A stretch of DNA of 64,000 nucleotides from Acidobacteriaceae bacterium. GTDB lineage: Bacteria; Acidobacteriota; Terriglobia; Terriglobales; Acidobacteriaceae. How positions within the stretch are numbered: position 1 is the stretch's first letter; every line of letters starts with the position of its first letter. This document shows, in pieces, positions 1 to 17,894 of the stretch. The notes under the pieces are model-generated. The model did no database searches. It was not told the DNA's origin and saw only the letters and a program-made list of their open reading frames with translations. The stretch spans positions 62,001 through 126,000 of the forward strand of contig PLHW01000035.1 in NCBI GenBank assembly GCA_003139095.1, written 5' to 3'. A program made the position numbers and the translations under genes.

Positions 1-1
1 G

Positions 2-2396: not shown

Positions 2397-3158
2397 ATGA
2401 GTTTGCAACAAATCCACTGGCTTTATAACTACTTGTGGGTCGCCCCACACCTACTCCTCATCCCGGTGGCTGCCGTCATGTTTCGCCGGGGATTACACAA
2501 GAAATTTCCTATTTTCTTCTCGTATCTCCTCTTTGAGTTTTCCCAGTTTGCTTTCCTCTTTTTCTTGCACGACATTAAGATAAGCCCAGCTTCTTACACC
2601 AATATCGATTTATTCTTCCGTATCGGAAGCATCGCGCTAAGATTCGGGATCTTGCAGGAAGCTCTGGAGGCGTCGCTCGGCCAGAATATGCCCCTCCGCC
2701 GAGCCATGGCGAGAGTCATGAACTGGGCCACTTTCTTTCTGGTCGCGGTGGCATCCATCTTCATCGTCTCCCTCTACTACAGCATCCTTAACCACCGGAC
2801 GTTCGTGGCTTACGTCATCGTCCAGGCATTGAACACGGCGCAATGCGGCTTGCTCGCTCTGGTGTTTGCGTGGCACCGCTTTCTCGGCCTGCGTATGTCT
2901 CCGATGGTGTTCGGAATTCTCTTCGGCATGGGCCTGGCAATTGGCGCCGAGCCGCTCATTATGGCGCTAAAGGACACTTTCGGCATTCCAGGTTCCACCA
3001 TCACGGATCTCGCGCAATTCGCGGCCTTCCACATTGCCGCGGTCAGTTGGCTTTACTTCGCCCAAGTCCGGGAAAAAGTCTCCTGGGCCACGGAAACCTC
3101 CGCTCTGCCCGATTTGCGGCAGTGGGCGGCCGATATGGGAAGGATCGCGCAACTATGA
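2397..3158 (+). CDS. Multi-pass integral membrane protein of unknown function
   Basis: A 253-residue protein with about seven hydrophobic segments (for example A-T-F-F-L-V-A-V-A-S-I-F-I-V and F-G-I-L-F-G-M-G-L-A-I-G-A) separated by short loops, so an inner-membrane location is likely. No catalytic motif or named family is recognised. Its stop overlaps the next start (ATGA at 3155-3158), so the two genes are probably translationally coupled and may work together. Confidence 0.7.
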   Translation: MSLQQIHWLYNYLWVAPHLLLIPVAAVMFRRGLHKKFPIFFSYLLFEFSQFAFLFFLHDIKISPASYTNIDLFFRIGSIALRFGILQEALEASLGQNMPLRRAMARVMNWATFFLVAVASIFIVSLYYSILNHRTFVAYVIVQALNTAQCGLLALVFAWHRFLGLRMSPMVFGILFGMGLAIGAEPLIMALKDTFGIPGSTITDLAQFAAFHIAAVSWLYFAQVREKVSWATETSALPDLRQWAADMGRIAQL

Positions 3159-3661
3159 TTCCCCTGATTATTCTCGCGATATTCACTCTGGTCCTGATCG
3201 GTTTCCTGGTGTTTCAGGTTCGCTCTCGGTACTCTGCGCCTAGCCGCACACCGGGTTCCAGCCAGCTTCTACCGGTCGATCTGGAAGCCTTCGACAATCT
3301 GACCGATCCCGAGGAAGAACAATTCTTGCGGTCGAATCTTTCCCCGCCCCAGTTCCGGAGCGTGCAGCGCTCCCGCATTCGCGCAGCTCGGGCTTATGTC
3401 GCAATTCTGTCGAAAAATGTCGGCGTGCTGGTCTCGGTCGGCCAATCCGCCCGTTATCATCCGGATCCCCAGATCGCGGCCTCCGGCCAGGACCTTATGC
3501 AGCGTGCGATCAGTCTCAAAATGTGGTGCCTGCTTTCTTTGTTGCGCATGAACGCTGCGTTTCTCTTCCCGGCGCTCTTATCCCCTTCCAACCGAATCAC
3601 CAATCAATACCTGATGGTGACCTACATGGCCACCAACTTGCCAGACAAGATCGCAGCCTGA
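3155..3661 (+). CDS. Single-pass membrane protein, coupled to the preceding gene
   Basis: 168 residues from the ATG that overlaps the upstream stop codon. Residues 1-22 form an N-terminal membrane anchor (I-P-L-I-I-L-A-I-F-T-L-V-L-I-G-F-L-V-F). The rest is a soluble, mainly helical domain with a second hydrophobic patch near residues 120-145. I chose 3155 over upstream in-frame starts because of the ATGA coupling and because upstream sequence is antisense-like to the neighbour. No family is recognised. Confidence 0.65.
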   Translation: MIPLIILAIFTLVLIGFLVFQVRSRYSAPSRTPGSSQLLPVDLEAFDNLTDPEEEQFLRSNLSPPQFRSVQRSRIRAARAYVAILSKNVGVLVSVGQSARYHPDPQIAASGQDLMQRAISLKMWCLLSLLRMNAAFLFPALLSPSNRITNQYLMVTYMATNLPDKIAA

Positions 3662-3693
3662 GGGGAAGGCGAATGAGGGAAACAACCCGGGCA

Positions 3694-3800
3694 GGGCTTC
3701 CCGGGACGGTCTTGCCCAGGGAGAACTGGGGAAGGGCTTTCCCGGGATAGTCTTGCTCAGGGATAGCCGGGGAAGGGCTTTCCCGGGAGAGCCTTGGGCA
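3694..3800. repeat. Three degenerate ~40-bp tandem repeats
   Basis: Units begin at 3694, 3734 and 3775, each opening with GGGCTT(T)CCCGGGA and containing a YCTTG core. The first two are about 40-41 bp and the third is truncated. They are noncoding and lie between the stop of the preceding membrane-protein gene and the parS region. Each unit holds a CCCGGG palindrome. Confidence 0.75.
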
Positions 3801-3961
3801 TTCTCTTCGGCGGGGGCGGATTCCGCTTTGAGGGGGTACAATTACGCGGTCCGCCCCGCCTCATACTGCGCGAGGATTGTAGCCATCATCGTCCAGAATA
3901 TTTTGGGCAACTTCTTCTTGTTACGGAAACCGTACAAACTCTAATAAATTGCCCTTTGGGG

Positions 3962-3980
3962 GTGTTGAATTTTTCAACAC
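3962..3980. other. Short perfect inverted repeat
   Basis: GTGTTGAA and TTCAACAC are separated by three T residues. The repeat is AT-rich in a GC-rich region and lies 370 bp from the parS sites. It could be a protein-binding site or a weak hairpin; function unknown. Confidence 0.4.
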
Positions 3981-4349
3981 TTTCTTCCCCTTGTTGCAGT
4001 TGTTTGTGACGCGCTGGGGGATCAGATTCGGATCGCGCACCGGTCGGATCTGGCGACGGTGGATTCCTACTGAGCAAACGGCCCCCGCCGTCCCACTCCG
4101 CCCGGGAAACACGATCGTCTTCGCCCCCGGAAGCCGTCTCACCCGCCCCGGGAAACCGTCCCGTGCCCCTAAAGCCGTTTCAGGTCACCGGAAGCCGTCC
4201 CGTGCCCCCGGAAATTCGCATTCGCCACCACCCGGTTTTTGCCTGGGTTGCAGGTCGTTGTTGCGCTTTCCGTTCCTAACCCTCATCATTACTTCCACTT
4301 ATGAGATATATCCATATATAAATATACGTACAATAAAACATGCACAAAA

Positions 4350-4365
4350 TGTTCCACGTGAAACA
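4350..4365. promoter_or_regulatory. parS site 1 (ParB binding)
   Basis: The sequence TGTTCCACGTGAAACA is identical to a well-known form of the bacterial parS centromere bound by ParB/Spo0J. It lies in a gene-free region just after an AT-rich tract (about 4290-4345). parA and parB themselves are not in the window. Confidence 0.85.
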
Positions 4366-4372
4366 CTCACGA

Positions 4373-4388
4373 TTTTCCACCGGAAACA
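4373..4388. promoter_or_regulatory. Degenerate parS-like site
   Basis: TTTTCCACCGGAAACA matches the parS consensus at 13 of 16 positions and sits between the two good sites. It may be a weak ParB site or a decayed copy. Confidence 0.4.
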
Positions 4389-4398
4389 TTGGACCGAA

Positions 4399-4414
4399 TG
4401 TTCCACGTGGAACA
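4399..4414. promoter_or_regulatory. parS site 2 (ParB binding)
   Basis: TGTTCCACGTGGAACA is a perfect 16-bp palindrome differing from site 1 at one base. It lies 49 bp from site 1 (start to start). Clustered parS copies nucleate ParB spreading and condensin loading near oriC in many bacteria. Confidence 0.8.
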
Positions 4415-4634
4415 CTCCCGGAAGGGAGCTAGACCACCTCTTGGCCGAGGACGGCTCGCCCCACCCGCCTCACCCGGAGCGCGACTCCAGCGGGCTAACC
4501 CATAGTAACCATTACACGACGCCACTTAGGGCCATTACCTAAGGGCCCCCCAATCCCTTCTTTTGGGCCATGTACTTTCGTGTGTATACGCGTTAGTCTA
4601 ACTACAGAAGTAGATCCCGCCTCTGGAGGCACCC

Positions 4635-5042
4635 TTGAAATCTTTCCTTTGCGCGATCCTTATGCTGTGCGCCATGGCCCAGGCGGAGAATCTTGCCACG
4701 ACGCCCGCTCCTTCACCCGACGCGCCTTCGCGGCCATCCTTCTGGACTTTTGAGAACAAGCTTGATCTCGGCCTGCTTGCGAGCCTGGTTACCGCCGACG
4801 CCATTACGACGCAACGCGGATTGAGCCAGGGTTTCCATGAGGCGAATCCCCTGATGCGGCCCTTTGTTACCCGCGGCGCGGCCGGCGAGGCCGCTGGCTC
4901 TGCGCTTGGATTTGGCGCCGGGCTTGGCACTACATATCTGCTCCACCGCACTCACCACTATAAGGCTGAACACATCGCCATGCGATTGATGGTGGGCACC
5001 GAGGGCGCGGTCGTGGCGCATAATTTCATAGTGCTTCACTAA
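4635..5042 (+). CDS. Secreted or membrane protein of unknown function
   Basis: 135 residues from a TTG start preceded by GGAGG at 4625-4629. Residues 1-17 are a signal peptide ending A-Q-A. The mature part has a Pro-rich spacer followed by two or three hydrophobic segments (L-L-A-S-L-V-T-A-D-A-I-T-T and A-A-G-S-A-L-G-F-G-A-G-L-G-T), with polar motifs such as N-P-L-M-R-P-F between them. The layout resembles small membrane proteins common in Acidobacteria. No enzymatic motif is seen. Confidence 0.65.
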   Translation: MKSFLCAILMLCAMAQAENLATTPAPSPDAPSRPSFWTFENKLDLGLLASLVTADAITTQRGLSQGFHEANPLMRPFVTRGAAGEAAGSALGFGAGLGTTYLLHRTHHYKAEHIAMRLMVGTEGAVVAHNFIVLH

Positions 5043-5154
5043 CCGGCGCGCGATTCCGACTCTCCACTTCGCGCATTGGCAGCTGGCAAGGGGCTATGCG
5101 ATACTGAGATCGCCTCAGGTGCAAAAGTCACCGATTAAGCGTGCGCAATCCTAA

Positions 5155-5241
5155 GCCGGGATGGCGGAACTGGCAGACGCAGCGGACTCAAAATCCGCCG
5201 GGCTTCGGCCCTTGGGGGTTCAACTCCCCCTCCCGGCACCA
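5155..5241 (+). tRNA. tRNA-Leu (anticodon CAA)
   Basis: Acceptor arms GCCGGGA/TCCCGGC pair fully. The anticodon stem is GCGGA/TCCGC with loop CTCAAAA, giving CAA (reads UUG). A long variable arm is present, as expected for a class II tRNA, and there is a normal T arm. CCA is encoded at 5239-5241. It is the boundary of the minus-strand sulfur gene cluster. Confidence 0.95.
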
Positions 5242-5428
5242 GCAGACTTGGTTTCAAGCGGTTACGCTCGTTGCCTAGTACTCTCCTAGGGGAACTTTTG
5301 CCTGCACCGTTAGACAATGCCGACGCCGGTCTTCCGAGCCTTCCGGCCACAATGGCGCCAGAGATGCGACGCAGGCGATGGCACCGATGCCAACTAGGAG
5401 AGTTCTTCGCGAGCAACTCAGGGCGCAC

Positions 5429-5818
5429 CTACCGGTGAAAAACCGGGGGAACGTTTGCCGAGTAAAAATGACAGTCGAAACAATCGGGACGCAGATTCAC
5501 AGAGTTGTGGCACTTGTCGCAGAACTGAGCTTTGTCGTTGTGGCAATGGCTGCAACTGCGCAAGGTGACCTCGTTGCGGATTCCCTCGCGCACAGTTTTG
5601 TCGCGGAGTTCCCGGAGAAAAACCCGGTGGTTTTGGCGCATCCAGACTGGGTCGCGAACGCAGCGCTGGGAGGGATCGGCGGTAGCCTGCAAGAACGGCT
5701 TGGGGGAGGAGAAGATCGAGGCCCAGGCGAAGCGTCCCACGCTATAGGCGAATGGAGACAGAATAACGATACCCGCGACGACGAGGAGGAGCCAGGCGTG
5801 CGTTCTATTCGAACTCAC
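5429..5818 (-). CDS. dsrJ: DsrJ-like periplasmic triheme cytochrome c
   Basis: 129 residues from a GTG start with GGGAGG five bases upstream, overlapping the end of qmoC by 14 bp. Residues 9-30 are an N-terminal membrane anchor or uncleaved signal. Three CxxCH haem sites lie at 89-93, 100-104 and 113-117. Cys53 in the C-V-x5-M-R-x2-H context matches the Cys that gives DsrJ one unusual His/Cys-ligated haem. DsrJ normally works in DsrMKJOP, moving electrons or sulfur species between periplasm and membrane during sulfite/sulfide metabolism. Here no dsrM, K, O or P is adjacent; it is the last gene of apr-qmo. Family assignment is from motif pattern; partner choice is inferred. Confidence 0.8.
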   Translation of the reverse strand: MSSNRTHAWLLLVVAGIVILSPFAYSVGRFAWASIFSSPKPFLQATADPSQRCVRDPVWMRQNHRVFLRELRDKTVREGIRNEVTLRSCSHCHNDKAQFCDKCHNSVNLRPDCFDCHFYSANVPPVFHR

Positions 5819-7064
5819 TTGGACCTCCCTGCCGCTGCCGTCCCGTATGCGCGGCGTACACCATGGCTGTGGCGCGGTAAATCATGTGGGCGAACTTGGA
5901 GTAGGGCAGCAGCACGATTAGCGCGAACACCGTTGCGAGGTGGACGACGTACACCATGTATCTGAGTGGATCGACGCGGGCATAGTGGAGGATCTCGCAT
6001 CCGAAACCTGTGAGCACGGTAGCCAGCGCCAAACCTAGAAACATCCAATCGAACCAGGTTCCTTTAAACAATGTTCCTTTGAACAGTGTTCCTTTGAACA
6101 GTGTTCCTTCGTACAACGTACCGGCAGGGGTGCTGTGAACCGTTCGATCGCGAACCATGAGGGAACACCCGAGGAGCATGGCGCCGCCCGCCAGATTCGC
6201 GAGGATTTTCCACGGGCTCCAGAAGTTAAAGGGATAGACAAAGGCATCCTTCAGCAGCGGATTGAATCGAACCGTGAGCACCCACAGATCAACGACGAGC
6301 AACCCCACAAAGCCGAAAAGCACGAACCGATGGGAGTTCATTCGCGGATGATTGAAAGTGCAGCGATCGAAATCCTCGTGAAGGAGGATGTTGCGCAGCG
6401 TGGTTCGAATGCTTGCGGCGATAGATTGCTTTTCGTGCTCCCGATTGTCTGCAAATCCCATTGCCTGGCCGCGGGCGTTCAGGTCGCGCCAAAAGCGGGA
6501 AACGCCGAGGATGATCACCACCGCATCGAGCAGCACAAGTGTCGCGAAGAATGCGATGAGAAGCCATTGCGGCAGTTGGCTCCAGTAGGAAATGATGATT
6601 CGATTCGAGCTGGTGGAAGCGGCAAACAGCTTTTCCAGCGGTCTGCTTCCCCATGCAACCAAACCCAGCAGCACGCACGGCAATAGCAGGAGGAACGGCA
6701 GACAATGGGGTTGGCTCACGCAATTGCCCAACCATTGCGGGGCACTGTAGTGGAGAATAGCCTCTCTGCGAACCGCGGCCATGACATCTCCAGGCCGGGC
6801 GCCACGCGGGCAACGTGAGGTGCAGTCGTTACAGTGATGGCAGAGCCAAATGTCCACATCCGCGAGCAACCGGTCCTTCAAGCCCCACTGCGCCCATAGC
6901 ATCTCTTTTCGCGGAAAAGGCTGACGGGCGGTTGAAAGTTCGCACACCACGGAGCAAGTGGCGCACTGGAAGCATTTCTTTAGATCCTCGCCGCCGCTTG
7001 CGATAAGGCGGTTGCGAAAACCCCGGTCGGGCTGGACAGCAGCGGGAGTGGGTATCGCTGTCAT
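5805..7064 (-). CDS. qmoC: QmoC, membrane iron-sulfur/cytochrome b subunit of the quinone-interacting oxidoreductase
   Basis: 419 residues from the ATG four bases after the qmoB stop, with an AAGGG ribosome site. The N-terminal HdrC-like part has two [4Fe-4S] motifs (Cys31, 34, 37, 41 and Cys75, 78, 81, 85, the second followed by P-R-G). The C-terminal part has about six membrane helices with histidines, as in NarI-type dihaem cytochrome b. QmoABC links the menaquinone pool to APS reductase. Oddly, a cytoplasmic loop near residues 316-335 carries a G-T-L-F-K pentapeptide repeated three to four times, encoded by 15-bp tandem repeats at 6059-6113. An upstream in-frame start at 7124 would overlap qmoB more and is less likely. 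Confidence 0.93.
   Translation of the reverse strand: MTAIPTPAAVQPDRGFRNRLIASGGEDLKKCFQCATCSVVCELSTARQPFPRKEMLWAQWGLKDRLLADVDIWLCHHCNDCTSRCPRGARPGDVMAAVRREAILHYSAPQWLGNCVSQPHCLPFLLLLPCVLLGLVAWGSRPLEKLFAASTSSNRIIISYWSQLPQWLLIAFFATLVLLDAVVIILGVSRFWRDLNARGQAMGFADNREHEKQSIAASIRTTLRNILLHEDFDRCTFNHPRMNSHRFVLFGFVGLLVVDLWVLTVRFNPLLKDAFVYPFNFWSPWKILANLAGGAMLLGCSLMVRDRTVHSTPAGTLYEGTLFKGTLFKGTLFKGTWFDWMFLGLALATVLTGFGCEILHYARVDPLRYMVYVVHLATVFALIVLLPYSKFAHMIYRATAMVYAAHTGRQRQGGPSEFE
6059..6113. repeat. 15-bp tandem repeat inside qmoC
   Basis: Three to four copies of GTTCCTTTGAACAGT (as read on the plus strand), the outer ones slightly diverged. The repeat is in frame and encodes G-T-L-F-K units, so copy number can change without a frameshift. 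Confidence 0.85.
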
Positions 7065-7068
7065 TTTG

Positions 7069-9333
7069 TCAGCCCTTGAACGGATTGAGGCCAATCTCTT
7101 CGATCTGTGCGGCAAATTCGTCAATGAGCGCCGGCAGCCGCTGGTAGTCGGACAAAGCGATCTGCTCGATGCGGACGCGCTCCTCTTCGAGCGCGAGCTG
7201 CACGAGTTTTTGCCGGATGTTTTCGCTGCGCGTGCCCATCAACTCGCTGCCGCGAATGAAGTGGCACTGGTAGTCGTCGCCCGACTTGCATCCCAGCAGC
7301 AATATGCCGTCGAACCCGCGGGCCAGCGCGTCGGCGATCCAGATCACGTTGACCGCGCCCAGGCAGCGCACCGGGATCACGCGGACAAAAGGACTGTAGC
7401 GGAGTCGAGCAACGCCCGCGGCCTCGAGTGCGGGCAAGGCATCGTTTTCACAGGCAAGCACCAACAGCCGCGGTTTCTCCTCGAATTCGTCAGGAACCTT
7501 CACGGCCTTGATCATCGAGGAGATCACGTCGATCGAGTAGTCGCCAAAGGAAATGATGCGTTCCGGGCAGGCGCCTAAGCAGATGCCGCAGCGGCGGCAA
7601 CGACCTGGATTCGGCAGCGGAGTTCCCTTCTGATCTTCATCGAGACTGCCGAAAGGACATTCCTCGGTGCAGCGTTTGCACTGCGTGCAGCGCTGCATCT
7701 GAAAATCCGGAACAGTCCGATCTTCCCAACGCGGATGCAACGTTGCGCCGCGCGCTGTCAGTTCGATGCACTGAATCGCCTTGAGCACGGCGCCCTGGGC
7801 ATCGGCGATGCAACCCTCAATGTCATTGGGCGCCCGCATGCAGCCCGCCGCGTAGATGCCGGTTCGCCGTGTTTCATACGGGAAACAGATGAAGTGGGAA
7901 TCGGGAAATCCGTTGTTCAGGACCGGAAGGTCGGGGCCCTGCCGATAAGTCAAGTGGAGCAGGTCTGTGCCCTCGAGGTGCCCCCGGTCGGCGATAAGCT
8001 GGCGAGCTGCGTCGAGTTGAGGACCCTGCTCTCCTTTGTTAATGATGGCCTTGGCGTCGCGCAGGTTGCGGATTACTTCGCCGTCGGCGGCGACCGGTAC
8101 CATGCCCGTCGCCAGAACTACAAGATCAGCCTCGACCGCAATTGACGGCCCAAGGAGAGTGTTCTCGACGTTGACTCGAAGCGGTTCGCGGCTTCCGGCA
8201 TCGGCTGCTGCAACTGAGACCACATCTCCCTTTAGCATGGATATGCCGGGGTCCTCTTGAGCACGCCGATAGAAGTCTTCGGATTGCGCCGGTGTGCGGA
8301 TGTCTTTGTAGAAGATGTAGGTTTCGACTTCAGGGTCGAGTTCACGCGCCCAAAGCGCCTGTTTCAGAGACGCTCGGCAGCACACAGCCGAACAGTAAGG
8401 AAGATGGGCTTGGTCGCGCGAGCCAGCGCACTGGATGAAGGCAATTCTCTTTGGCGGACGGCCATCGGAGGGGCGGTGGATTTTGCCGGTGGCTGACAAA
8501 CGTTCCATCTCAACATTTGTGATTACGTCGGGACTGCGGCCGTAGCCAAGATGGCCCAGCCGCGAGGCGTCATACGGCTTCCAGCCCGTGGCCTGAACAA
8601 TGGCGCCCGCCTTGGTCTGAATTGCGGAACCATTGACCTCCAACTCAATTTCGAACTGCCCTGGCTGGCCACTGATACTGTTGATCGCGGCGGACCGGTA
8701 GATTTGGATGTTTGGGTCGTTCTCCAATTCGCGGATCTGTCTGTCGAGATCGATACTCTCCAAATCACGGTAAGGGGCGCTCTTGGGAAACTGTCTTTTG
8801 AAAGTGCGGAGCCATCCTCCGAGGTCGGCTTCCTTTTCGACCAGCACCACTCGAAATCCGGCACGGCTCGCGTCGCGCGCAGCAGCCATGCCGCTGGGCC
8901 CTCCTCCAACCACCAGGATGGTCGGCTCGGCGGCGAGTTTGGCCGGCTCTCGCATTTCCGCCTTGAGCGCTCGCGCCATTCCCATGCGCAGGTTATCTTC
9001 GGCGAGCATCTGCGTGTCTTCGTTGCCGGGTTCATGACTCCAGACCACCAGTTCGCGCAAATTCACTCTTTCGACGAAACAAGAATCGGAGGCAAAGGTC
9101 TGGGAATGGAATCGGCCGGAGCAGGCGGCGACGACCAGCGACGTGACGCCGGACTGAACGCTCTCTTTGATCTGTGCAACTCCCTCGTCACCACAAAGAA
9201 ATGGATGCGAGCGGCACACAGAGACACTGCGCTCCTCACGTGCGACTTTTTCGAGAGCTTCGATATCAAGCGCAGCTCCGATGTCGCAACCGCGACAGAG
9301 AAAGACCGCGACGTTCTTCTTCTCGTCAGCCAC
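7069..9333 (-). CDS. qmoB: QmoB, HdrA-like flavoprotein with MvhD-like domain
   Basis: 754 residues. After an N-terminal domain with several Cys (F-L-C-R-G-C-D-I-G), an FAD-binding Rossmann fold begins near residue 135 (V-V-G-G-G-P-S-G-M). Two ferredoxin clusters follow near residues 545-595 (C-T-Q-C-K-R-C-T-E-E-C-P and C-R-R-C-G-I-C-L-G-A-C-P). The C-terminal ~140 residues resemble MvhD (L-L-L-G-C-K-S-G-D-D-Y-Q-C-H-F). This matches QmoB of sulfate reducers and HdrA of methanogens. It forms the soluble part of Qmo with QmoA and may confurcate or relay electrons to AprBA. It overlaps qmoA by 8 bp, which fits translational coupling. Confidence 0.93.
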   Translation of the reverse strand: MADEKKNVAVFLCRGCDIGAALDIEALEKVAREERSVSVCRSHPFLCGDEGVAQIKESVQSGVTSLVVAACSGRFHSQTFASDSCFVERVNLRELVVWSHEPGNEDTQMLAEDNLRMGMARALKAEMREPAKLAAEPTILVVGGGPSGMAAARDASRAGFRVVLVEKEADLGGWLRTFKRQFPKSAPYRDLESIDLDRQIRELENDPNIQIYRSAAINSISGQPGQFEIELEVNGSAIQTKAGAIVQATGWKPYDASRLGHLGYGRSPDVITNVEMERLSATGKIHRPSDGRPPKRIAFIQCAGSRDQAHLPYCSAVCCRASLKQALWARELDPEVETYIFYKDIRTPAQSEDFYRRAQEDPGISMLKGDVVSVAAADAGSREPLRVNVENTLLGPSIAVEADLVVLATGMVPVAADGEVIRNLRDAKAIINKGEQGPQLDAARQLIADRGHLEGTDLLHLTYRQGPDLPVLNNGFPDSHFICFPYETRRTGIYAAGCMRAPNDIEGCIADAQGAVLKAIQCIELTARGATLHPRWEDRTVPDFQMQRCTQCKRCTEECPFGSLDEDQKGTPLPNPGRCRRCGICLGACPERIISFGDYSIDVISSMIKAVKVPDEFEEKPRLLVLACENDALPALEAAGVARLRYSPFVRVIPVRCLGAVNVIWIADALARGFDGILLLGCKSGDDYQCHFIRGSELMGTRSENIRQKLVQLALEEERVRIEQIALSDYQRLPALIDEFAAQIEEIGLNPFKG

Positions 9334-10600
9334 GATGAGAACTCACACAACTCTGAAGCGCTTTGAGCGCGGCGCTAGTCGCATCGCGCACGCACGACGC
9401 AACATCCATCGGCTGCCGGGCACACCCCGCCGCAAAATGACCGGGCAGCAGCTGAGCGTTCGACAAAAACCCATGAGGATCCCGGCTGAGCATGGACGAG
9501 GGCGAAGCCGAGTGGTTCCGCAGCGCGGGGACCATGCCAGTCGCCAACACCACGAGGCTCACTTTTTGCCGAATGCTGCGCTCGGCCATTACGTCCTCGG
9601 CTGCGACGATAAGGTCGCCGGACGTTCCATCCTCGGTCACTTTTGCCACTTTGCCTTTGACGAGATGGAGCCTTTCATCCTGTTGGGATTCGGCAAGAAA
9701 CAACTCCTGGCGGCCGGGGGAACGGAGATCGATGTAATAAACGTAAATGTCGGCGTTCGGGTACTGCGCCCGCACATATCGAGCCTGCTTGAGCGACGCC
9801 ATACAGCAGACGCTAGAGCAGTGTTTGAGATGGTTCTCGTCACGCGACCCGGCACACTGCACGAAGGCGACGCTTTCGATCTCTTTGCCATCGGAGGGGC
9901 GAAGAATGCGGCCTTTTGTTGGGCCGGTGGGCGCAGCCAGTCGCTCCATCTGGACGTTGGAGATCATGTTGGAATGGAGACCCAGTCCGTCGACCACGCT
10001 CGCGTCGAAAGGCTCCCAGCCGGTGGCCCAAATCACAGACTGTACTTCGAACTCGCGGCGTTGCGCCGTCATCTTCAGATCGATCGCGCCGTATGCGCAA
10101 GCGGGAAGGCACTTTCCACATTGCTCGCCGGGACATGCTGCGGGATCGATTGTGTGACGGAAAGGCCAGGCAAGATCGGTGGGAAGGTAAATGGCGCGGG
10201 TCGTTCCCATGCCGTAGTTGAACGAGTCAGAGCGCGATTCCGGACAGGCCGCGACACATGCTCCGCAGGCCGTACATCGCTCATTCACAAACCTGGGCCG
10301 TTGCTCAACTGTCACCCGGTGCCACCCGTCGCTCGCCTGGACCTCAACGACTTCGGACAAAGTGAGGCAGCGAATGCGAGGGCTGGTGCGAATGCGGCGC
10401 AGGTTGATTTCGAGACCGCAGACCGGTGGGCAGAGTTTCGGAAAGTACTGATGCATCTGCGCCACGCGCCCGCCGAGATAGGCGCTGCGCTCGACGAGAA
10501 TGACGTCGCAACCGGCCTCAGATGCTTCGATGGCAGCGGTGATTCCGGTAATCCCGCCGCCGACGACCATCACTCGGCCGCGGCTATCGGCTTCGCTCAT
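9326..10600 (-). CDS. qmoA: QmoA, HdrA-like FAD and iron-sulfur subunit
   Basis: 424 residues with an N-terminal FAD motif (V-V-G-G-G-I-T-G-I-T) and the HdrA-type segment L-G-G-R-V-A-Q-M, a single ferredoxin-like motif (C-T-A-C-G-A-C-V-A-A-C-P) near residues 92-103, a second Cys set around C-P-G-E-Q-C-G-K-C-L-P-A-C, and the C-A-G-S-R-D signature near residue 250 shared with HdrA and QmoB. QmoA is thought to contact AprBA and pass electrons to or from the Qmo membrane subunit. It lies 82 bp downstream of aprA and overlaps qmoB. Length agrees with known QmoA proteins. Confidence 0.92.
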   Translation of the reverse strand: MSEADSRGRVMVVGGGITGITAAIEASEAGCDVILVERSAYLGGRVAQMHQYFPKLCPPVCGLEINLRRIRTSPRIRCLTLSEVVEVQASDGWHRVTVEQRPRFVNERCTACGACVAACPESRSDSFNYGMGTTRAIYLPTDLAWPFRHTIDPAACPGEQCGKCLPACAYGAIDLKMTAQRREFEVQSVIWATGWEPFDASVVDGLGLHSNMISNVQMERLAAPTGPTKGRILRPSDGKEIESVAFVQCAGSRDENHLKHCSSVCCMASLKQARYVRAQYPNADIYVYYIDLRSPGRQELFLAESQQDERLHLVKGKVAKVTEDGTSGDLIVAAEDVMAERSIRQKVSLVVLATGMVPALRNHSASPSSMLSRDPHGFLSNAQLLPGHFAAGCARQPMDVASCVRDATSAALKALQSCVSSHRG

Positions 10601-10682
10601 GGGTCAACGCCTGCCTCCGGGGAGAACGGAGCCCGTTTAGATGACGCCCCGTGGCACGAACAGCCGCCCGTGGACGAGCCCG

Positions 10683-12593
10683 TCACTTTGCGGCGCTCCC
10701 AATACCGACGAGATACTTCACCGGCCGTTTGATCATTTTCCACTCGCCAGTGGCGTGATCGAATACGCAGTTGCAGAACGCAAGCCAGTCTTTGTTGTCG
10801 AGAGCGGGCTTGTCGGTGCGGAAGTAATAACCGGGCCAACGCGTCTCCTCGCGGAAGTGAATCGAGTTCACATGGGCCTCGGCCTGGTGCATGCGATGCA
10901 CACTCTCCCAGCAGCGCATGAGTTCATTCAGGTTCTCGGCGCCGAGATGCGCTGCATCGCCGCGCAAGAACGCCAGCAGTTCTTTGCCCTTCTCGAGCAG
11001 TGTGCCGCTGGTTTTGAACTGACTTGAGACGCCACCGGCATACTCATCCATGATCTTCTGCATGCGATACATGAACTGCCTGGGACGAATGTAGGCGGGG
11101 TTAATATCGGCATCGGTCGTGTTCCCGCGATTTGCCTCGAATGTACTCAGCGGTTTGAGAATCTCGGCCTTCAGCGATTCAACCAGGGCCGGGTCAATTT
11201 GTGGCGCCGTGTTGTGATCAACGACGTAGGCGATCGCTCCTTTTGCAGCAATGCGTCCCTCGGTGAACGAGCCCGAAGAGAACTTGTGGCTCGATGCTCC
11301 GGAGGCGTCGCCGGCGGCAAACAGGCCGCCGACAGTCGTCATATTGGGATAGCCCCAGAAATAATCTGACTTGGTTGCGTCCGTCTGCAGATCGGAAGGT
11401 CCGGAGACCCAGGCTCCGGATGCGCCGGAGTGCGAACCGATGAAATACGGCTCGCATGCCATGATCTCCGACGGCTTGACCTCTGGTTCGACATTGGTAG
11501 CAGCCCAGAGGCCCGCTTGCGCGATCGTCATATCCAGAAAGTCTTCCCACGCTTCCGATTCAAGCTCCTTCAGCTTCTTCTTCGCGGTCTTCTCGTCGGG
11601 CGATTCTTTGGCGATGCGCTGGATGGCATCCGCCGTTTGCATGTAGATCGGCCCCTTGCCGGCCATCACATCAAGCATCATGAGCCAGTTGCGCAGATTC
11701 GCAGGGATGGGTTTGGCGCGGCTGTACGGTTCCCACTTGGCAAGTTCAGCGGCATTCTCAACCATGTAGTCTTTGCCTTCGGCATTGGTTGCGAGAGCCT
11801 TGAAGAGCAGGAACCACGCGCCCACGGGGCCGTAAGCATCTTTGAAGCGAACCGGAATAAACCGCACTTCCTGGCAGGTCATTTCGGCCCCGGCGTAGAG
11901 CGTGAAGAACGCGCTTCCCGCCGAATTGAAGGGGGGATACCAGGAGCGACCGAATCCTTCTCCCGTGGAGCGGGGCTTGAAGACATGTACCGCGCCGCCC
12001 ATTGCCACCAGTGTGGCTTTGGCCTCGAACACGTAGACAGTGTTGTCACGAGTGCTAAAACCGATCGCACCCACACAGCGGTCGCCATCCATTAAAGGAT
12101 GGGTGATGAACACTCTTTCGAAATACTGCCCTCCGGTTTCGGCCAGCGCATTCTTGGCGGCTTCCGCCACGATGACCTTGTACGATTCTCCGTTGATCAT
12201 CAGCTGCCAGCGCCCTTCATGCACGTATTTTCCGTCTTTGTCTTTCCAGATGGGCAGTCCCCACTTTTCAAACAGGTGAACAGTTGAGTCAACGTGGCGC
12301 GCGATATTGGCAACGAGATCCTCGCGCGTGATACCCATCAGGTCATTGCGGACGTAATCAACGTAGTCTTTCACCGTGTTCTGTCCGCCATTGAGATCGA
12401 CGTACATGTTGATGGCCGACAGTCCCATGGCGACGGCGCCGGAGCGCTCCATGGCCGCCTTGTCGACCAACGTGACTTTCAGCCCGTGCTGGCGCGCCCA
12501 ATAGCTGGCTTCGATGGCGGCGCCGCACGCGGCCATACCGCCTCCACAAACGAGTAAATCCGTCTTGACGACTACGGTTTTGAAATCCGCCAT
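10683..12593 (-). CDS. aprA: Adenylylsulfate (APS) reductase alpha subunit
   Basis: 636 residues with an N-terminal FAD-binding fold (L-V-C-G-G-G-M-A-A-C-G-A), the M-G-L-S-A-I-N segment, a flavin-domain G-G-L-F-A-A-G-D-A-S-G-A-S-S-H-K-F-S-S-G motif near residue 430, and the long helical C-terminus of AprA. The enzyme interconverts APS with sulfite and AMP on FAD, in the cytoplasm. It is 35 bp downstream of aprB with a GGAGA ribosome site. Direction of catalysis cannot be told from sequence; the Qmo partner is typical of sulfate reducers but also occurs in some sulfur oxidisers. sat is not in the window. Confidence 0.95.
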   Translation of the reverse strand: MADFKTVVVKTDLLVCGGGMAACGAAIEASYWARQHGLKVTLVDKAAMERSGAVAMGLSAINMYVDLNGGQNTVKDYVDYVRNDLMGITREDLVANIARHVDSTVHLFEKWGLPIWKDKDGKYVHEGRWQLMINGESYKVIVAEAAKNALAETGGQYFERVFITHPLMDGDRCVGAIGFSTRDNTVYVFEAKATLVAMGGAVHVFKPRSTGEGFGRSWYPPFNSAGSAFFTLYAGAEMTCQEVRFIPVRFKDAYGPVGAWFLLFKALATNAEGKDYMVENAAELAKWEPYSRAKPIPANLRNWLMMLDVMAGKGPIYMQTADAIQRIAKESPDEKTAKKKLKELESEAWEDFLDMTIAQAGLWAATNVEPEVKPSEIMACEPYFIGSHSGASGAWVSGPSDLQTDATKSDYFWGYPNMTTVGGLFAAGDASGASSHKFSSGSFTEGRIAAKGAIAYVVDHNTAPQIDPALVESLKAEILKPLSTFEANRGNTTDADINPAYIRPRQFMYRMQKIMDEYAGGVSSQFKTSGTLLEKGKELLAFLRGDAAHLGAENLNELMRCWESVHRMHQAEAHVNSIHFREETRWPGYYFRTDKPALDNKDWLAFCNCVFDHATGEWKMIKRPVKYLVGIGSAAK

Positions 12594-12628
12594 GATTGCG
12601 TTCTCCTAAAACTTTCCATTCCGACGTC

Positions 12629-13096
12629 CTAGAGTGTTGGGATCTTGTCGAACTTCACCGGCCCGACTTCGTTGTTCAGCCCGGCGGGTTCACTCATCAG
12701 CGTCGGGCTCTTGAGGTCGGCATCTCCAGTTGGGAAATGATCGAAAGGCTGCGCCTTGCCCTCGGCAACACCACGCCGCGTCGGAAACTTGAAGCGCTTG
12801 GGTTTGATCTCTTTGTTGCGAAACTGGACCGTCCACAAGATGTCCTCGCTGCTCCGCATAGGCGTCACACTGGCGCCGAGAGGAACAAAGTCGGCATAGC
12901 CGCGGACTTCAATGGCCTGCGTGGGGCAGATCTTTACGCAGCTGTAGCATTCCCAGCACATCGAGGGATCGCGGTTGTAGGCCTTCATGAGCTGGGAGTT
13001 CAGCGTCATGAGGTCGTTGGGACAGATGTACTGGCAGGCGGTCTTGTCGAGCGCCTTACATCCATCGCATTTACTGGCAATGACGAAACTGGGCAT
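12629..13096 (-). CDS. aprB: APS reductase beta subunit (ferredoxin-type)
   Basis: 155 residues from ATG 13096, chosen because GGAGG lies eight bases upstream and because AprB proteins begin M-P-x-F-V; an in-frame ATG 18 bases earlier lacks this support. Two [4Fe-4S] sites are visible: C-D-G-C-K-A-L-D-K-T-A-C-Q-Y-I-C-P near residue 10 and C-W-E-C-Y-S-C-V-K-I-C-P near residue 47. The C-terminal tail that wraps around AprA is present (residues ~85-155). AprB passes electrons to the FAD of AprA. First gene of the apr-qmo-dsrJ operon. Confidence 0.95.
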   Translation of the reverse strand: MPSFVIASKCDGCKALDKTACQYICPNDLMTLNSQLMKAYNRDPSMCWECYSCVKICPTQAIEVRGYADFVPLGASVTPMRSSEDILWTVQFRNKEIKPKRFKFPTRRGVAEGKAQPFDHFPTGDADLKSPTLMSEPAGLNNEVGPVKFDKIPTL

Positions 13097-13132
13097 TTTG
13101 CCTCCAGAACTCACGAGAATGACTTGGACAAG

Positions 13133-13186
13133 CTATGTCGTCTGCAGGTCACTGAGCACACGCTTAGCAGTCCTATTGCGACATAG
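13133..13186 (-). promoter_or_regulatory. Structured leader hairpin before aprB
   Basis: Perfect 8-bp outer arms CTATGTCG/CGACATAG enclose 38 bases that continue the fold on the minus strand (AGG/CCT, ACTG/CAGT, then AGC-GTGT-GCT as the tip, with small bulges). About 18 bp pair over 54 bases, ending 37 bases before the aprB start. No U-run follows, so it is not an intrinsic terminator. It may stabilise or regulate the mRNA. Confidence 0.45.
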
Positions 13187-13348
13187 AAACGCCGGGGGAT
13201 AATACAGAACCTCTCGATGCCAGCCCAATAATGGATCATCTCAAGCATCGGAATATGAGAGGCGATTCTTACTTAGACCGTCGGTTGAACTTCATGCTCG
13301 ACGATCAACAATCTCGATAAACTCTATAAGGAAAGGAAGACTACCGTC

Positions 13349-13364
13349 TGTGATTCGTGTCACG
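13349..13364. promoter_or_regulatory. CRP/FNR-family operator upstream of aprB
   Basis: TGTGATTCGTGTCACG is a TGTGA-N6-TCAC palindrome, the form recognised by CRP/FNR-superfamily regulators. It lies about 255 bp upstream of aprB and 270 bp from the end of the mtrB-like gene. A close relative lies upstream of the universal stress gene at 26779-26794. Confidence 0.5.
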
Positions 13365-13637
13365 TCCGTATGTAACAGATAATGCCGGCGTTGTGGATGA
13401 CTGTAGGCGTTTTCTGAGGTGTTTCAGCCAGGGACCGGTCCGCCAGCTGGAATCCACACAAAGGAGTTTGCAGCGGTTTTTGGATCTGAGATAACGCGAG
13501 ACAGCTACATGCGGTGTTTCCTGGGGTTGGCGGCAGAGACGGGCAGAAACTCGCTTGGAAACACGTCGCCCAAATGCGAAATGAATACGAAGCCCTTGCC
13601 GTCGTTGATCCGATATCGGAGCCTGCTCCGGATACCC

Positions 13638-15899
13638 TCAGAATGCGTAACGCAGGGACTCGGTCAGCGAGTTGGCGTGAAAGTAGCGCGGCGCTGTCGG
13701 GCCGACAAACGAACCTTCGCCGTACTGGTAATAATTCCAGCCCATGTTGTAGGCCAGTTTGTGGCCCAAATCCACGCTCAGGTTGGCCAAGGGCTGCTGG
13801 TACTTGTACTGCACCGAGCCGAGAGGCTGCAGAATGTTGAACTGCGGCACACTGCCATCAACACTGGTGATACTGTAGCCGACGTTGGCCATCACTCGCT
13901 TCGCCGCCTTGAACCGGATAGCAGCCATTCCGAAATTAGCGTGGTTGGTGTAGTACGAGTTGGCGAGCAGTGGATTGTTCGGGTCGTTCGCTGCACAAGA
14001 GGCGGCAGTGGCCACGAAGGGGAGGGTCACTCCGGTTGGCGGAGTATCGTTGAAGCAGATCAGAGCATTCTGGATTACGCTGTTGAAGTTGTACGCCAGA
14101 TCCAGTCCGAAGCGTTCGCGCGGTGCGAGTGAGGCGGTCAGGCCGTAGTTTTGGTTGTGGCCCACGTACTGGGTTTGTGCGTCGGCGTTTGATTGTTGCA
14201 AGATATTGATGGACCCGCCCAGGATCGCCCAGGGTCGCGGCGTGTAGGTGGTCTGGAAACGGTAGCGCCCTTCCTTGCGTGGCGACATGCGGACGAAGAC
14301 GCCGTTGTAGTTGGTGTGCTCCAGATCGAAATTCAATCGCAGGGAATGGGTGGGCCGCGCCCAGAGCCCGAAGAGCGCCGTTTTCTCCAGGCCTACGAAA
14401 TGGTCCAAGTCTCCGGGCAAATAATCATTGAAGTGGTTGAAGTCCCTGTCGCCATAGCGGTACCCGATGCGTGCCCCGGCTTTTTTCGAAATGTCCCAGG
14501 CCAGTTCGGTCTGATTCCTCTTCCAGTCCTGGTTGAAGGACGATTGAATCAGCGTGTTGGTCGTGGTTGGGGTAGTGAGCGGCGTACTAAGTAGCGTGCA
14601 TGGTAGCATTGCACAGCTATAGTCGCTCTCGCTGAAATTCCCGTTCTGCGGAATGCGGTAAGCCCAAAAATAAAACTTTTCAATCAAGCGCAGATGTTGA
14701 GTAAGGTGCAGGGTGGCCTCGAGATCCAGCACGTCGGAAATGCGGTTGGCAGCGGCAGTTCCGGTGCCGGTGAAGGCGAGGGTATTGGTACGCGTGATCA
14801 GGCCGCTGAAAGACTCGTCCAACGGCGTGCTTGAAGTTGCGGAACTATACGAAAAAGAACCGAGCACTTCCAACTTCCGGAAGTAATTGCTGCGCAGGCT
14901 GAGGCGTTCGGTGGGCGTGGAGGTGCGGATCCGCTGCTCGCGCGCGTAGCTGAAGTACGCGCTGCACTTGATATTGGTCAGAATTCCGTTGACAACCAAG
15001 CTGGGTTGCCCTGCCGGTACGGCGCACGGTTCTTTGTTCGCTGTATCGATGGATAAGCCCAGCTCAACCGGGCCTACTCCCGGCGCGGGGAGTTGCGCCG
15101 GCGCGAAGGAGGCCAGGGAAGTGTCCGTGTCTCCCTTGTAGTAATCGAGGAATTGATCGTAGCTAAGGACGGTTTGCGGCGCGAGCCTCAAGTCTACGCC
15201 CATGCGATAGGAGTTCATGGTCATATTAATTGGCTGCAACAGCAGTGCGTCCGTTCCTTCATGGATGCTACTGAAAGAAGGCCCGGTCATGTTGTTATGC
15301 GAATATCCGAGCCGAAAGCTCACGCGGGATTGAGGAAGCAGCGTGAGGTCAACGTCGCTCATGCGTCGCGTTGTATCGAATAAGTGAGGCGAGTTCAGCA
15401 CCGGAATTGATGGAGTGGAAGTTGGGGGATTCAGGGGGTTCGCCAACAAGTCGAAGTCGGAGAAACTCTGGTCGCGGCGGAAGCTGCTTTGCAGGTTGTA
15501 CCACTTGTTCTTGTCGGCGCGCAGGCGCAGGTAGTTGTTGGGATCGCCTCCCCACCCCGAACTGTTGACGTAGAGATTGTCGAACAGCAGGCCCATGTGA
15601 TCGAGCGACTGCATCGACAGGGTCTGGTCAAGAATTCGAGGGCCGGTTTGCAGATTCACCAGGGTGTCGTACATGTCGCCGCTGCCGGTTACATCGTTGG
15701 AGCGATAGCCGGCCTCGACCGACGAGTGAATCAGATAACCGCCGCGGTTGACGCCATCGGGTTCTGCGGGCGGGACAGGGGCTGGGGGGGCGGTGGGGGT
15801 CTGTGCAACGAGCGCGCCGGGTGACAACACGATTGCGGCGCACACAAGCATCGCTAGAACTATCGCTCTTCGACATCTGCTATGACCAAGCTGCGCCAT
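13638..15899 (-). CDS. MtrB/PioB-like outer-membrane beta-barrel protein
   Basis: 753 residues: a signal peptide (residues 1-32, cleaved near V-A-Q), a Pro-rich linker, then a long run of amphipathic strands rich in aromatic residues (Y-L-R-L-R-A-D-K-N-K-W-Y, F-R-L-G-Y-S-H-N), ending in the aromatic residue typical of barrel proteins (R-Y-A-F). Size and strand pattern fit the decaheme-associated MtrB/PioB family, which sheathes a multihaem cytochrome through the outer membrane. It begins 9 bp after the decahaem gene, the classical pairing. The N-terminal CxxC of Shewanella MtrB is absent. Assignment rests on pattern and context, not on a catalytic motif. Confidence 0.8.
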   Translation of the reverse strand: MAQLGHSRCRRAIVLAMLVCAAIVLSPGALVAQTPTAPPAPVPPAEPDGVNRGGYLIHSSVEAGYRSNDVTGSGDMYDTLVNLQTGPRILDQTLSMQSLDHMGLLFDNLYVNSSGWGGDPNNYLRLRADKNKWYNLQSSFRRDQSFSDFDLLANPLNPPTSTPSIPVLNSPHLFDTTRRMSDVDLTLLPQSRVSFRLGYSHNNMTGPSFSSIHEGTDALLLQPINMTMNSYRMGVDLRLAPQTVLSYDQFLDYYKGDTDTSLASFAPAQLPAPGVGPVELGLSIDTANKEPCAVPAGQPSLVVNGILTNIKCSAYFSYAREQRIRTSTPTERLSLRSNYFRKLEVLGSFSYSSATSSTPLDESFSGLITRTNTLAFTGTGTAAANRISDVLDLEATLHLTQHLRLIEKFYFWAYRIPQNGNFSESDYSCAMLPCTLLSTPLTTPTTTNTLIQSSFNQDWKRNQTELAWDISKKAGARIGYRYGDRDFNHFNDYLPGDLDHFVGLEKTALFGLWARPTHSLRLNFDLEHTNYNGVFVRMSPRKEGRYRFQTTYTPRPWAILGGSINILQQSNADAQTQYVGHNQNYGLTASLAPRERFGLDLAYNFNSVIQNALICFNDTPPTGVTLPFVATAASCAANDPNNPLLANSYYTNHANFGMAAIRFKAAKRVMANVGYSITSVDGSVPQFNILQPLGSVQYKYQQPLANLSVDLGHKLAYNMGWNYYQYGEGSFVGPTAPRYFHANSLTESLRYAF

Positions 15900-15908
15900 G
15901 GCTACTCC

Positions 15909-16901
15909 CTACTTGAAAAACACATCGCTGAAGTTGGACCCATGGATCTGGTTGTGACACATGGTGCAGGCCTGGTACTTCGCCGATTGATTGTGTACCG
16001 GCCCGCTGGGGCCGCCGGCCGTCAACTGGGTCGAGAAGGTGTGGCACTGGAGACAGAGCATGTTGACCGGCATCACTTTGAGCAGCCGTGGATTGGTGGA
16101 GCCGTGGGGGGTGTGGCAACTGGTGCAGCCCTCGGTCTTGACCGGCACATGCTCGTAGATGAAGGGCCCCTGTTTGTCGACGTGGCACTTGTAGCAAACC
16201 GCATCGCCGCTTGGCAGAGAGCGCACCTGACGGATCGTCGCCGTCCCATGCGGGTTGTGGCAGTCATTACATTGGACCATGCCTTCGTTGACTCGATGGT
16301 GATAAGGTTTGGCAAAATCTGCCTTGGCCGACGTGTGGCATCCATAGCACAACTGGGGCTGGTCCTGGACGAGCAAGAATTCCTTTTCCTTGGCGTGATG
16401 GGGAGAGTGGCAGTCGAGGCAGCCGACCTCGCTACTGGAGTGCGCGGATTCTGCAAAATGCGACTGCTGGTGACTTTCGCCGTGGCAGGTCAGACATCGA
16501 GCACTGGTTTCCTGTCGCGACTGCCCTTCGAATACAAAAATCTTGGTCTTGTCGCCGCCACCAGCAACGTGGTCGGCGCCGGGACCGTGGCAGCCCTCAC
16601 AGCCCTGGTGTGACGGGCCGCCTTGCTTATCTAATGTGGTCTTCCAGTGCGGCGTTTTCTCCCACTCGTTATAGATTTCCTCATGACAGGTCTTGCAGGT
16701 TTCGGCTCCCACGTATTTGGATGCGTCGGATGAAAGCGCACTGGCGGCGGGTGGGTGGGCGGGCGGAGTGTTCTTGTCGGCAACCTGCTGGCGAGCCTGG
16801 CCGGAAGCAATGGTGGCGACGAGTGTAAGAAGGCACACTACCGGGAACTGCAAACCTCGAGAGGCTCTGCAACTTCTTGCCACCAGGATTAGTTTTCGCA
16901 T
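15909..16901 (-). CDS. Decahaem c-type cytochrome, MtrA/DmsE-like
   Basis: 330 residues from ATG 16901, chosen for the AGGAGG ribosome site just upstream; an in-frame ATG at 16970 lacks one. Residues ~1-35 are a signal peptide. Ten CxxCH motifs follow in order: CKTCH, CEGCH, CLTCH, CLDCH, CYGCH, CNDCH, CYKCH, CTSCH, CLQCH, CTMCH. Count and size match the periplasmic MtrA/DmsE/PioA family that carries electrons from the inner membrane or periplasm through an MtrB barrel. The next gene is that barrel. No outer-surface MtrC-type cytochrome is seen nearby, so the electron donor or acceptor is unknown. Confidence 0.92.
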   Translation of the reverse strand: MRKLILVARSCRASRGLQFPVVCLLTLVATIASGQARQQVADKNTPPAHPPAASALSSDASKYVGAETCKTCHEEIYNEWEKTPHWKTTLDKQGGPSHQGCEGCHGPGADHVAGGGDKTKIFVFEGQSRQETSARCLTCHGESHQQSHFAESAHSSSEVGCLDCHSPHHAKEKEFLLVQDQPQLCYGCHTSAKADFAKPYHHRVNEGMVQCNDCHNPHGTATIRQVRSLPSGDAVCYKCHVDKQGPFIYEHVPVKTEGCTSCHTPHGSTNPRLLKVMPVNMLCLQCHTFSTQLTAGGPSGPVHNQSAKYQACTMCHNQIHGSNFSDVFFK

Positions 16902-17375
16902 GCCCCCTCCTCGACACGGGCCCATCAACATGACAAAAAGAGTTTGGCCGCTCACGTTGCGAAGTCGCACATGTTCATCTCACTACCACTCCCATTTCAT
17001 GAGTAAGCGATGTTAAGAGGACTGACAATGCAAAAACTGTTCAAGATTGCACACTTTCGACGATAAAAAATCAGACCTTTCAGGATGCTGCCAGGCCGCG
17101 AATGAGCTGTTTATTCCCCTGCACAAGTAGAGCGTAGCGAAGACCGCGCGGGTTTGCAGTGATTACTGAACTCGAAATTTGTGATAAATCCAGCCGGGGC
17201 AGCGCATAACTCGCCTGGCTTGTCTTCGCGGAAGACAACAAGCTCGTTCATTGGTAAGTAACGCTGCTGCGCCCGCCGGCGGCTCCACAGCCACGCTTCG
17301 TGGATGCTGATGGCTCGAATCCGGCAAGCCGAACGTGACGAGACAAATCCGGCGCCATTCCCGGATTGTCCAGAA
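16902..17375. other. Gene-free stretch upstream of the decahaem gene
   Basis: About 470 bases with no believable gene. It must hold the promoter of the cytochrome-barrel operon and the 3' end of the dinB-like gene. One inverted repeat, TTGTCTTC-GCG-GAAGACAA, lies near 17219-17238 without a T-run. Confidence 0.5.
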
Positions 17376-17894
17376 TTACTTCTTGGCAGTGGGTGGGGTC
17401 AGTCCGTTCAAGCGGAGATACATGGCGGCTTCGGCGTAGTGATCGGCCCAGTTGCTGGCGATGCCCAGAGCGAAGCGGGCGCGCGACATATCCTGGCCGC
17501 CGAATCCTTTGGTCATCTCGCCGAGTTTCGAATCGTCCATCCTGGAGATCGCGTCGCCGCAGAAATCGAACGAGGCCTTGAGAGCGGCGACGAGCTTGTC
17601 CTTCGGATCGGTGTCTTTCGCTTCGTCTACCTTGGGCGCCGGAACCGCGGCAGCGTTGCCGCATAGAACATAGTTGGCCTCAACCATGTGCGCCACAAGA
17701 TGGCCGAACGTCATCTGGTCGGCACTGGGTTTGTAGCTGAACTTGTCGGCGGGCATGGCTTCGACGGCCTCGATCGTATTCTTCTGGCGATTGGGAAGCA
17801 CCTCTTTGAGCGCGGTTGCAATCGGGTTCTTAACTTGCGCCGCCGCTGAGGCGACAAGCACGAGCAGAGCTACAACGAGGTGAGTCAATTTCAT
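17376..17894 (-). CDS. DinB-family protein with signal peptide
   Basis: 172 residues from ATG 17894 with GGAGG six bases upstream. Residues 1-19 are a signal peptide (L-V-V-A-L-L-V-L-V-A-S-A-A-A). The rest is a four-helix DinB/YfiT-like domain with metal-ligand-type histidines (F-G-H-L-V-A-H-M-V near residue 65 and N-W-A-D-H-Y near residue 150). DinB-like proteins are metal-dependent, and members acting on thiols such as bacillithiol are known; a secreted form is common in Acidobacteria. Substrate unknown. Confidence 0.8.
   Translation of the reverse strand: MKLTHLVVALLVLVASAAAQVKNPIATALKEVLPNRQKNTIEAVEAMPADKFSYKPSADQMTFGHLVAHMVEANYVLCGNAAAVPAPKVDEAKDTDPKDKLVAALKASFDFCGDAISRMDDSKLGEMTKGFGGQDMSRARFALGIASNWADHYAEAAMYLRLNGLTPPTAKK

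Follow-up and report, generated by a model that had tools for sequence, protein, structure and literature searches.

A decahaem-barrel gene pair beside an APS reductase-Qmo-DsrJ gene set in an acidobacterial genome: probably two systems lying side by side

In the MtrAB/DmsEF systems of Shewanella (structure 6R2Q, PMC7198977) a decahaem cytochrome of the MtrA/DmsE family stands beside a barrel-type protein of about 750 residues, and MtrA/DmsE-type decahaems have already been read as a hint that Acidobacteria may reduce iron (PMC3669403). Sulfate reducers, the peatland Acidobacteria SbA2, SbA3 and SbA7 among them (PMC6018796), carry the adenosine 5'-phosphosulfate (APS) reductase AprBA together with QmoABC and have dsrAB, dsrC and dsrMKJOP elsewhere. 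An active sulfate-reducing acidobacterium has been described (PMC10564751), and PMC6018796 reports known metal-reduction genes as absent from the peatland sulfur Acidobacteria save for one complex in SbA2. The subject here is a place where genes of both kinds adjoin. It lies in a stretch of 64,000 nucleotides, the window, which is C31:62001-126000 of genome G000 (G standing for genomes, L for loci and C for contigs of G000), an Acidobacteriaceae draft of 5.53 Mb in 75 contigs with a contamination estimate of 2.56%, contig C31 being 131 kb long.

Eight minus-strand genes, every frame intact, follow one another there in the order decahaem, barrel, aprB, aprA, qmoA, qmoB, qmoC and dsrJ (Table 1), just as an earlier note on this DNA had listed them. 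The note had further seen in them a joint operon by which APS/sulfite chemistry could exchange electrons with an extracellular partner, and such an operon we consider unlikely: 541 bases separate the pair from aprB, the pair was seen near none of 106 other apr loci, and the company that the pair keeps in relatives is a NapC-type cytochrome. The reading preferred here, to which we give a probability of roughly three in four, is that two systems of independent inheritance have come to adjoin, the decahaem-barrel pair being a conduit with a NapC-type partner and apr-qmo-dsrJ a foreign APS-reductase arm. The adjacency by itself is probably chance, and the two could still share the quinone pool, as they would wherever one cell has both.

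Co-localisation of apr-qmo with mtrAB-like genes, the check that the note had proposed, was sought at the 80 named loci kept by an AprA scan of 170 relatives and at 26 acidobacterial loci, at least one genome being in both parts (L090 and L250). Neither decahaem nor barrel was found (E 1e-3) near any of these 106 loci within the stretch available, which reached at least 4.5 kb upstream of aprA in 77 of them (55 of the 80 and 22 of the 26). Pair and apr lie on separate contigs in the AprA-bearing kin G007, G345, G425, G477 and G492 (among 200 genomes sampled), and AprA is absent from all seven congeners in that sample, G536 included.

The layout, too, suggests two units rather than one. Nine bases separate decahaem and barrel, and from aprB to dsrJ the spacings are at most 82 bases or the genes overlap, as dsrJ does with qmoC. 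The 541 bases between barrel and aprB hold no start-to-stop open reading frame of 80 amino acids, and the longest same-strand frame that lies fully within them runs over 98 codons between stops. Three of the gene starts, 16901 for decahaem, 13096 for aprB and 7064 for qmoC, were picked by eye. A scan for promoters and terminators gave no more sites than shuffled sequence and does not settle transcription, so separate transcription would be read from the spacing alone. In GC and codon use the eight genes do not stand out from the 38 other window genes, from which they deviate by about 1.5 standard deviations at most.

Table 1. Features at and around the junction, in window coordinates
Feature	Position	Strand	Remarks
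DinB-like gene	17376..17894	-	named by sequence look; last genus-backbone gene ahead of the breakpoint
rearrangement breakpoint region	16971..17375		G536 DNA similarity stops at 16992; backbone begins at DinB-like gene
decahaem c-type cytochrome, MtrA/DmsE family	15909..16901	-	TIGR03508 271.6 bits (cut-off 192.2); ten CXXCH
putative outer-membrane barrel, remote MtrB/PioB relative	13638..15899	-	no Pfam match; profile-profile match
spacer between two units	13097..13637		541 bases, GC 0.51, no gene called
aprB, APS reductase beta	12629..13096	-	TIGR02060 191.3 bits (cut-off 135.65)
aprA, APS reductase alpha	10683..12593	-	TIGR02061 849.2 bits (cut-off 641.75); clade foreign to host family
qmoA	9326..10600	-	HdrA-model matches below cut-off; 57-62% to qmoA of the 12 closest-type apr loci
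qmoB	7069..9333	-	HdrA2-type matches below cut-off, plus FlpD domain
qmoC	5805..7064	-	NF038018 351.4 bits (cut-off 300)
dsrJ, Qmo-linked clade	5429..5818	-	NF038038 68.9 bits (cut-off 100), profile positions 9-121 of 121; three CXXCH

With what, then, does the pair usually keep company? The congener G503 has the gene row crp-crp-[pair]-MHC19-cytb-MHC13 (two Crp-like genes, decahaem and barrel, a 19-haem protein, cytochrome b and a 13-haem protein), and further along lies MHC6, a cytochrome that carries a NapC/NirT domain. G000 itself holds a module like that of G503 on C61 (L020:4642-13023), at 72-95% identity and without the pair. Among 49 chosen family genomes MHC6 is present in 22 of the 25 that bear the pair, as against four of the 24 that do not (p 5e-7); when congeners and genomes chosen for AprA are set aside the figures are 15 of 18 and 2 of 21 (p 4e-6), both tests ignoring relatedness. 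In 12 of the 25, no more than 15 kb lies between MHC6 and the pair. Most likely the pair works for a NapC-type quinol-oxidising chain, and apr-qmo belongs to the sulfur pathway. Together the two genes of the pair would encode an electron conduit, the decahaem set in the MtrB-like barrel, by which respiratory electrons delivered by periplasmic and NapC/NirT-type multihaem cytochromes cross the outer membrane; the likely partner module is that on C61.

As to what the pair is, profile searches were made with Pfam and with NCBIfam, the latter with its curated cut-offs. The decahaem belongs to the MtrA/DmsE family TIGR03508, of which it is the only above-cut-off match in G000, and its profile matches structure chain 6r2q_A with E 1.1e-64, a chain that the search table labels cystathionine beta-synthase and that PMC7198977 assigns, as 6R2Q, to the Mtr complex. 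For the barrel the earlier note's 'MtrB-like' holds only in part: none of 20 members of its family matches the MtrB/PioB profile PF11854 at E <=1, but comparison of the family by hhalign with MtrB_PioB proteins (18 acidobacterial proteins drawn from PF11854 matches, L270 and L271 being left out because the wrong open reading frame had been picked) gives 98.5%, E 1.5e-15, over 635 columns at 14% identity. Judged by its profile, the barrel is a remote relative, of the MtrB/PioB superfamily in a wide sense. Two of the results that the note had named as refuting its reading are therefore seen in part, the lack of adjacency at other apr loci and the barrel's failure against the MtrB/PioB profile. 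A PDB sequence search with the barrel profile yielded three DUF1887 family matches at E about 0.9, which were rejected, and a single-sequence structure model had a mean pLDDT (30.3) too low for use.

MtrAB/DmsEF thus resembles the window pair in its decahaem, in the length and kind of the protein beside it and, remotely, in barrel profile, and differs in that the window barrel falls outside the MtrB_PioB profile and in having no MtrC adjoining. Only the decahaem and dsrJ have at least two CXXCH in the window, so that no MtrC-like surface cytochrome adjoins the pair; further afield, where the earlier note had proposed to look for an MtrC-like gene, there is a 19-haem protein on C61 with an MtrC/MtrF-domain match of 54.3 bits. 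Another pair that invites comparison is the GSU2203/GSU2204 type (NCBIfam labels), the GSU prefix of which we take to be Geobacter: both window scores are below cut-off, the decahaem with 217.6 bits (cut-off 325) and the barrel with 32.1 bits over residues 540-615 (cut-off 350), and the window barrel is without CXXCH.

Within the phylum the decahaem family (E <=1e-40) is found in 186 of 396 sampled Acidobacteriota genomes, above cut-off in 157, and barrel relatives in 83. Decahaem and barrel are adjacent in 19 of 19 fetched relatives that have both, these having been hand-chosen from the decahaem and barrel survey matches, and all 20 decahaems have ten haem motifs. PF11854 is present in 45 of 149 genomes and has no match in G000; both kinds of pair, window-type and MtrB_PioB-type, are carried by G121 and G147. 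A further quinol-oxidising setting for the pair is met in G417 (L246:7504-13566), where it lies behind Rieske-, cytochrome b- and nine-haem-like genes (labels by look).

The ground on which the two systems meet has been rearranged. To the right of the pair the genes (cation efflux, prfA and others, named by look) are present in all seven congeners, and the DinB-like gene stands beside the same right-hand neighbours in five. In these five, what comes after the DinB-like gene is a ligA-like gene and not the pair (in G536 with one extra open reading frame between); G548 has the ligA-like gene and not the DinB-like one, and the contig of G520 differs. A search of C31:1-126000 found none of the ligA-like neighbours. 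DNA similarity to the pair of G536, which is 78-80% identical to that of the window, spans window 13638-16992 and ends at the pair's own ends; since it stops at 16992 and the backbone begins at the DinB-like gene, the pair sits at a breakpoint. On the other side, none of the window genes that lie left of dsrJ was found next to the backbone in the congeners.

The sulfur genes probably have a provenance of their own. In a tree of AprA (quick method, no bootstrap, matches spanning fewer than 500 residues left out) the window protein belongs to a 12-member clade (SH-aLRT 100) that stands apart from the AprA of five family members. Its companions there are from Planctomycetota, Gemmatimonadota, Latescibacterota and Fibrobacterota, together with a record that bears the title Desulfobacteraceae and a genome from a different acidobacterial family (G090). 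By this tree the type to which aprBA-qmoABC-dsrJ belongs is not the host family's own. A sat gene on C1 (L018:7580-8854), with no recognised sulfur genes around it, is 80-84% identical to sat near the family's own apr-qmo operons, and a family-type sat together with a foreign apr-qmo fits replacement of an old apr-qmo by a foreign one.

That this is an AprBA-QmoABC set follows from AprB, AprA and QmoC scoring over their curated cut-offs and from qmoA and qmoB standing in order. The identity of the latter two comes also from the matching same-order genes of other apr loci, qmoB being 58-68% identical to its counterpart in 11 of the 12 closest-type loci (in the twelfth, L023, it is cut by the contig end). 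Of the names in the earlier note those of the decahaem, AprB, AprA and QmoC are thus borne out by score, while QmoA, QmoB and DsrJ remain below cut-off and are placed by order or tree. Qmo would hand quinol electrons to the cytoplasmic AprBA, or the reverse. The rest of the pathway, sat and dsrAB included, which the note had wished to see looked for, is present elsewhere in G000: C8 has dsrA, dsrB, a DsrL-like gene, dsrC and dsrMKJOP, all above cut-off save the DsrL-like gene, which is labelled by position and a glutamate-synthase-type family match, and there are two sat genes, both on contigs other than that of apr and one fused to APS kinase. From the sulfate reducers cited at the outset the window set differs in its foreign apr clade, in dsrJ behind qmoC, in having sat on other contigs and in the want of a YkgJ-like gene between aprA and qmoA. 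Such a cysteine-rich protein (label by look) lies between those two genes at L022:4801-5688, L030:12348-13241, L143:11296-12120 and L127:5583-6428; there was no match to it on C31:1-126000 and none between window aprA and qmoA. Left of the window, C31:47731-53378 holds a NiFe hydrogenase cluster (a hypF-like gene lies to its right), and with it a candidate electron donor system close to the sulfur genes.

The gene that closes the set deserves a closer look. Like the DsrJ of DsrMKJOP, that of the window has three haem motifs, and in relatives of the window set the order J-O-P recurs; it differs in being attached to qmoC and not to dsrMK, in falling in a separate DsrJ clade and in that O and P were not found, so that with qmoC upstream and neither dsrO nor dsrP found downstream it is no DsrMKJOP, a full set of which is on C8. 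Among 108 sources scanned there are 14 DsrJ, five of which, the window's included, stand behind qmoC; in the other four (L025, L030, L127 and L128) dsrO and dsrP follow. A tree of 13 sequences, 12 of them distinct and with the truncated DsrJ of L045 excluded, puts the five in a clade (100/99) apart from the other eight, which include the C8 copy and seven of which have dsrK upstream, L076 starting at a contig end. (The C8 DsrJ, L014:8224-8628, has two CXXCH and a CXXXCH in place of the third.) An alignment of the five, run against 199 acidobacterial genomes, found 27 places at E <=1e-8. All six above 100 bits (L293, L294, L296, L297, L298 and the window) have qmoC upstream, and the five outside the window have dsrO downstream and, in four, dsrP, one contig ending first; 19 of the 27 have dsrK upstream, and L311 and L316 are unclear. 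Each of these six acidobacterial genomes with a qmoC-linked DsrJ also carries a DsrJ behind dsrK. In L025, L030 and the window the qmoC-linked dsrJ lies inside the apr cluster itself, the order aprBA-qmoABC-dsrJOP being seen in two Planctomycetota. The window order would be a reduced form of this, in which the trihaem cytochrome attaches to the membrane part of QmoC as DsrJ does to DsrM in DsrMKJOP.

Might the window DsrJ instead be a functionless remnant of a lost dsrJOP set, Qmo being ordinary QmoABC? Its branch in the tree is long, a caution in itself, its score is under the NCBIfam cut-off, and no trace of dsrO or dsrP was found behind it, window 1-5428 offering nothing better than E 2, and that on the plus strand. 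(Candidate matches down to E 2e-5 were rejected as lying within qmoB, and the Fe-S protein of the C31 hydrogenase cluster, which also matched the search, was not taken as a remnant.) Yet the frame is intact and overlaps qmoC, the three CXXCH are there, and the protein retains all 26 residues that do not vary among the five aligned members, Cys53, Met60, Arg61 and His64 included, though by construction, the window DsrJ being part of that alignment. A Cys ligates one DsrJ haem. On balance decay is the less probable account, at perhaps one chance in five. No printed name for the qmoABC-dsrJOP arrangement was found under six name variants, which does not show it to be unpublished, and sections 8 and 9 of PMC10504309 are without mention of qmoC-linked dsrJOP. 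As a separate observation, another multihaem neighbour of Qmo, a nine-haem protein, lies directly behind qmoC in two acidobacterial loci, L130:16795-18756 (G294) and L131:16822-18870 (G078).

A number of observations weigh against two systems side by side as set out above. Codon use and GC of apr-qmo lie inside the host range, for which reason recent arrival by composition, once considered, was dropped. The qmoC-dsrJ sets in G104, G164, G113 and G156 (L127 and L128 among them) are separate from the aprBA-linked qmoAB, so that the two are not always together; with the sets of L127/L128 and of G113 and G156 lying apart from the qmoAB that adjoins aprBA, what dsrJ accompanies would often be a second Qmo set. 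Three of the 25 pair-bearing genomes have no MHC6 and 13 no link inside 15 kb; in G073 and G121 MHC6 is on the contig of the MtrB_PioB-type pair instead; G536, whose pair is closest to that of the window, has only a 44% MHC6 relative; and G560, counted as pair-bearing, has its barrel in pieces. By these exceptions MHC6 seems tied to outer-membrane conduits generally. The window pair is only about 59-60% (decahaem) and 50-54% (barrel) identical to that of G503, less than the module the two genomes share, so that it may not be the module's original but another copy which has taken its place. The decahaem family is found in 20 of 24 AprA-bearing genomes, as against 166 of 372 others (p 2e-4, relatedness ignored). 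And the adjacency of pair and apr is seen in one genome alone, in which case chance could not be told from a functional coupling of recent date.

That enrichment of decahaems is among the points that speak for a single coupled circuit, with the adjacency selected and APS/sulfite electrons traded with an outside partner by way of Qmo, DsrJ and the decahaem-barrel conduit. The genes are, after all, on the same strand, adjoining and intact, the window DsrJ is without its usual DsrOP partners, which would leave a periplasmic haem exit, and sulfate reducers fed with outside electrons through another conduit, OetABI, have been described for ANME partners (PMC10553843). Against it stand the 106 apr loci without the adjacency, the 541-base gap, the pair's association with a NapC-type cytochrome and the breakpoint beside the pair, and we hold such a circuit to be improbable. 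We would be just as slow to accept a more elaborate version, namely that Qmo is a wired complex, QmoABC-DsrJ(OP), which trades electrons with periplasmic cytochromes and quinones and in which, DsrOP having been lost here, DsrJ passes electrons from sulfite oxidation on to the adjacent conduit, or draws on it for APS reduction, and so links the APS step to minerals, humics or other cells. No title was found that describes apr-qmo together with an MtrA/DmsE conduit in Acidobacteria, the literature being mostly judged by titles. Least probable is an assembly error joining unrelated stretches, for although the draft is in 75 contigs with some estimated contamination and the arrangement is met once, the composition of the eight genes is that of the window, the contig is long with genus backbone on its right, and the congener G536 has the pair.

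If, as preferred here, two independently inherited systems adjoin by chance, the search for a sulfur-to-mineral operon is spared. What is then gained is a divergent MtrB-like barrel that would mark a conduit in 83 of the 396 sampled Acidobacteriota genomes; because it fails the standard MtrB profile, surveys of metal reduction that rely on that profile would miss it. The Qmo-linked DsrJ is in our judgement the part worth following. That a second dsrJOP set is found behind qmoC suggests that JOP can be exchanged between the membrane subunits DsrM and QmoC, and such exchange would open the periplasmic side of APS reduction to testing.

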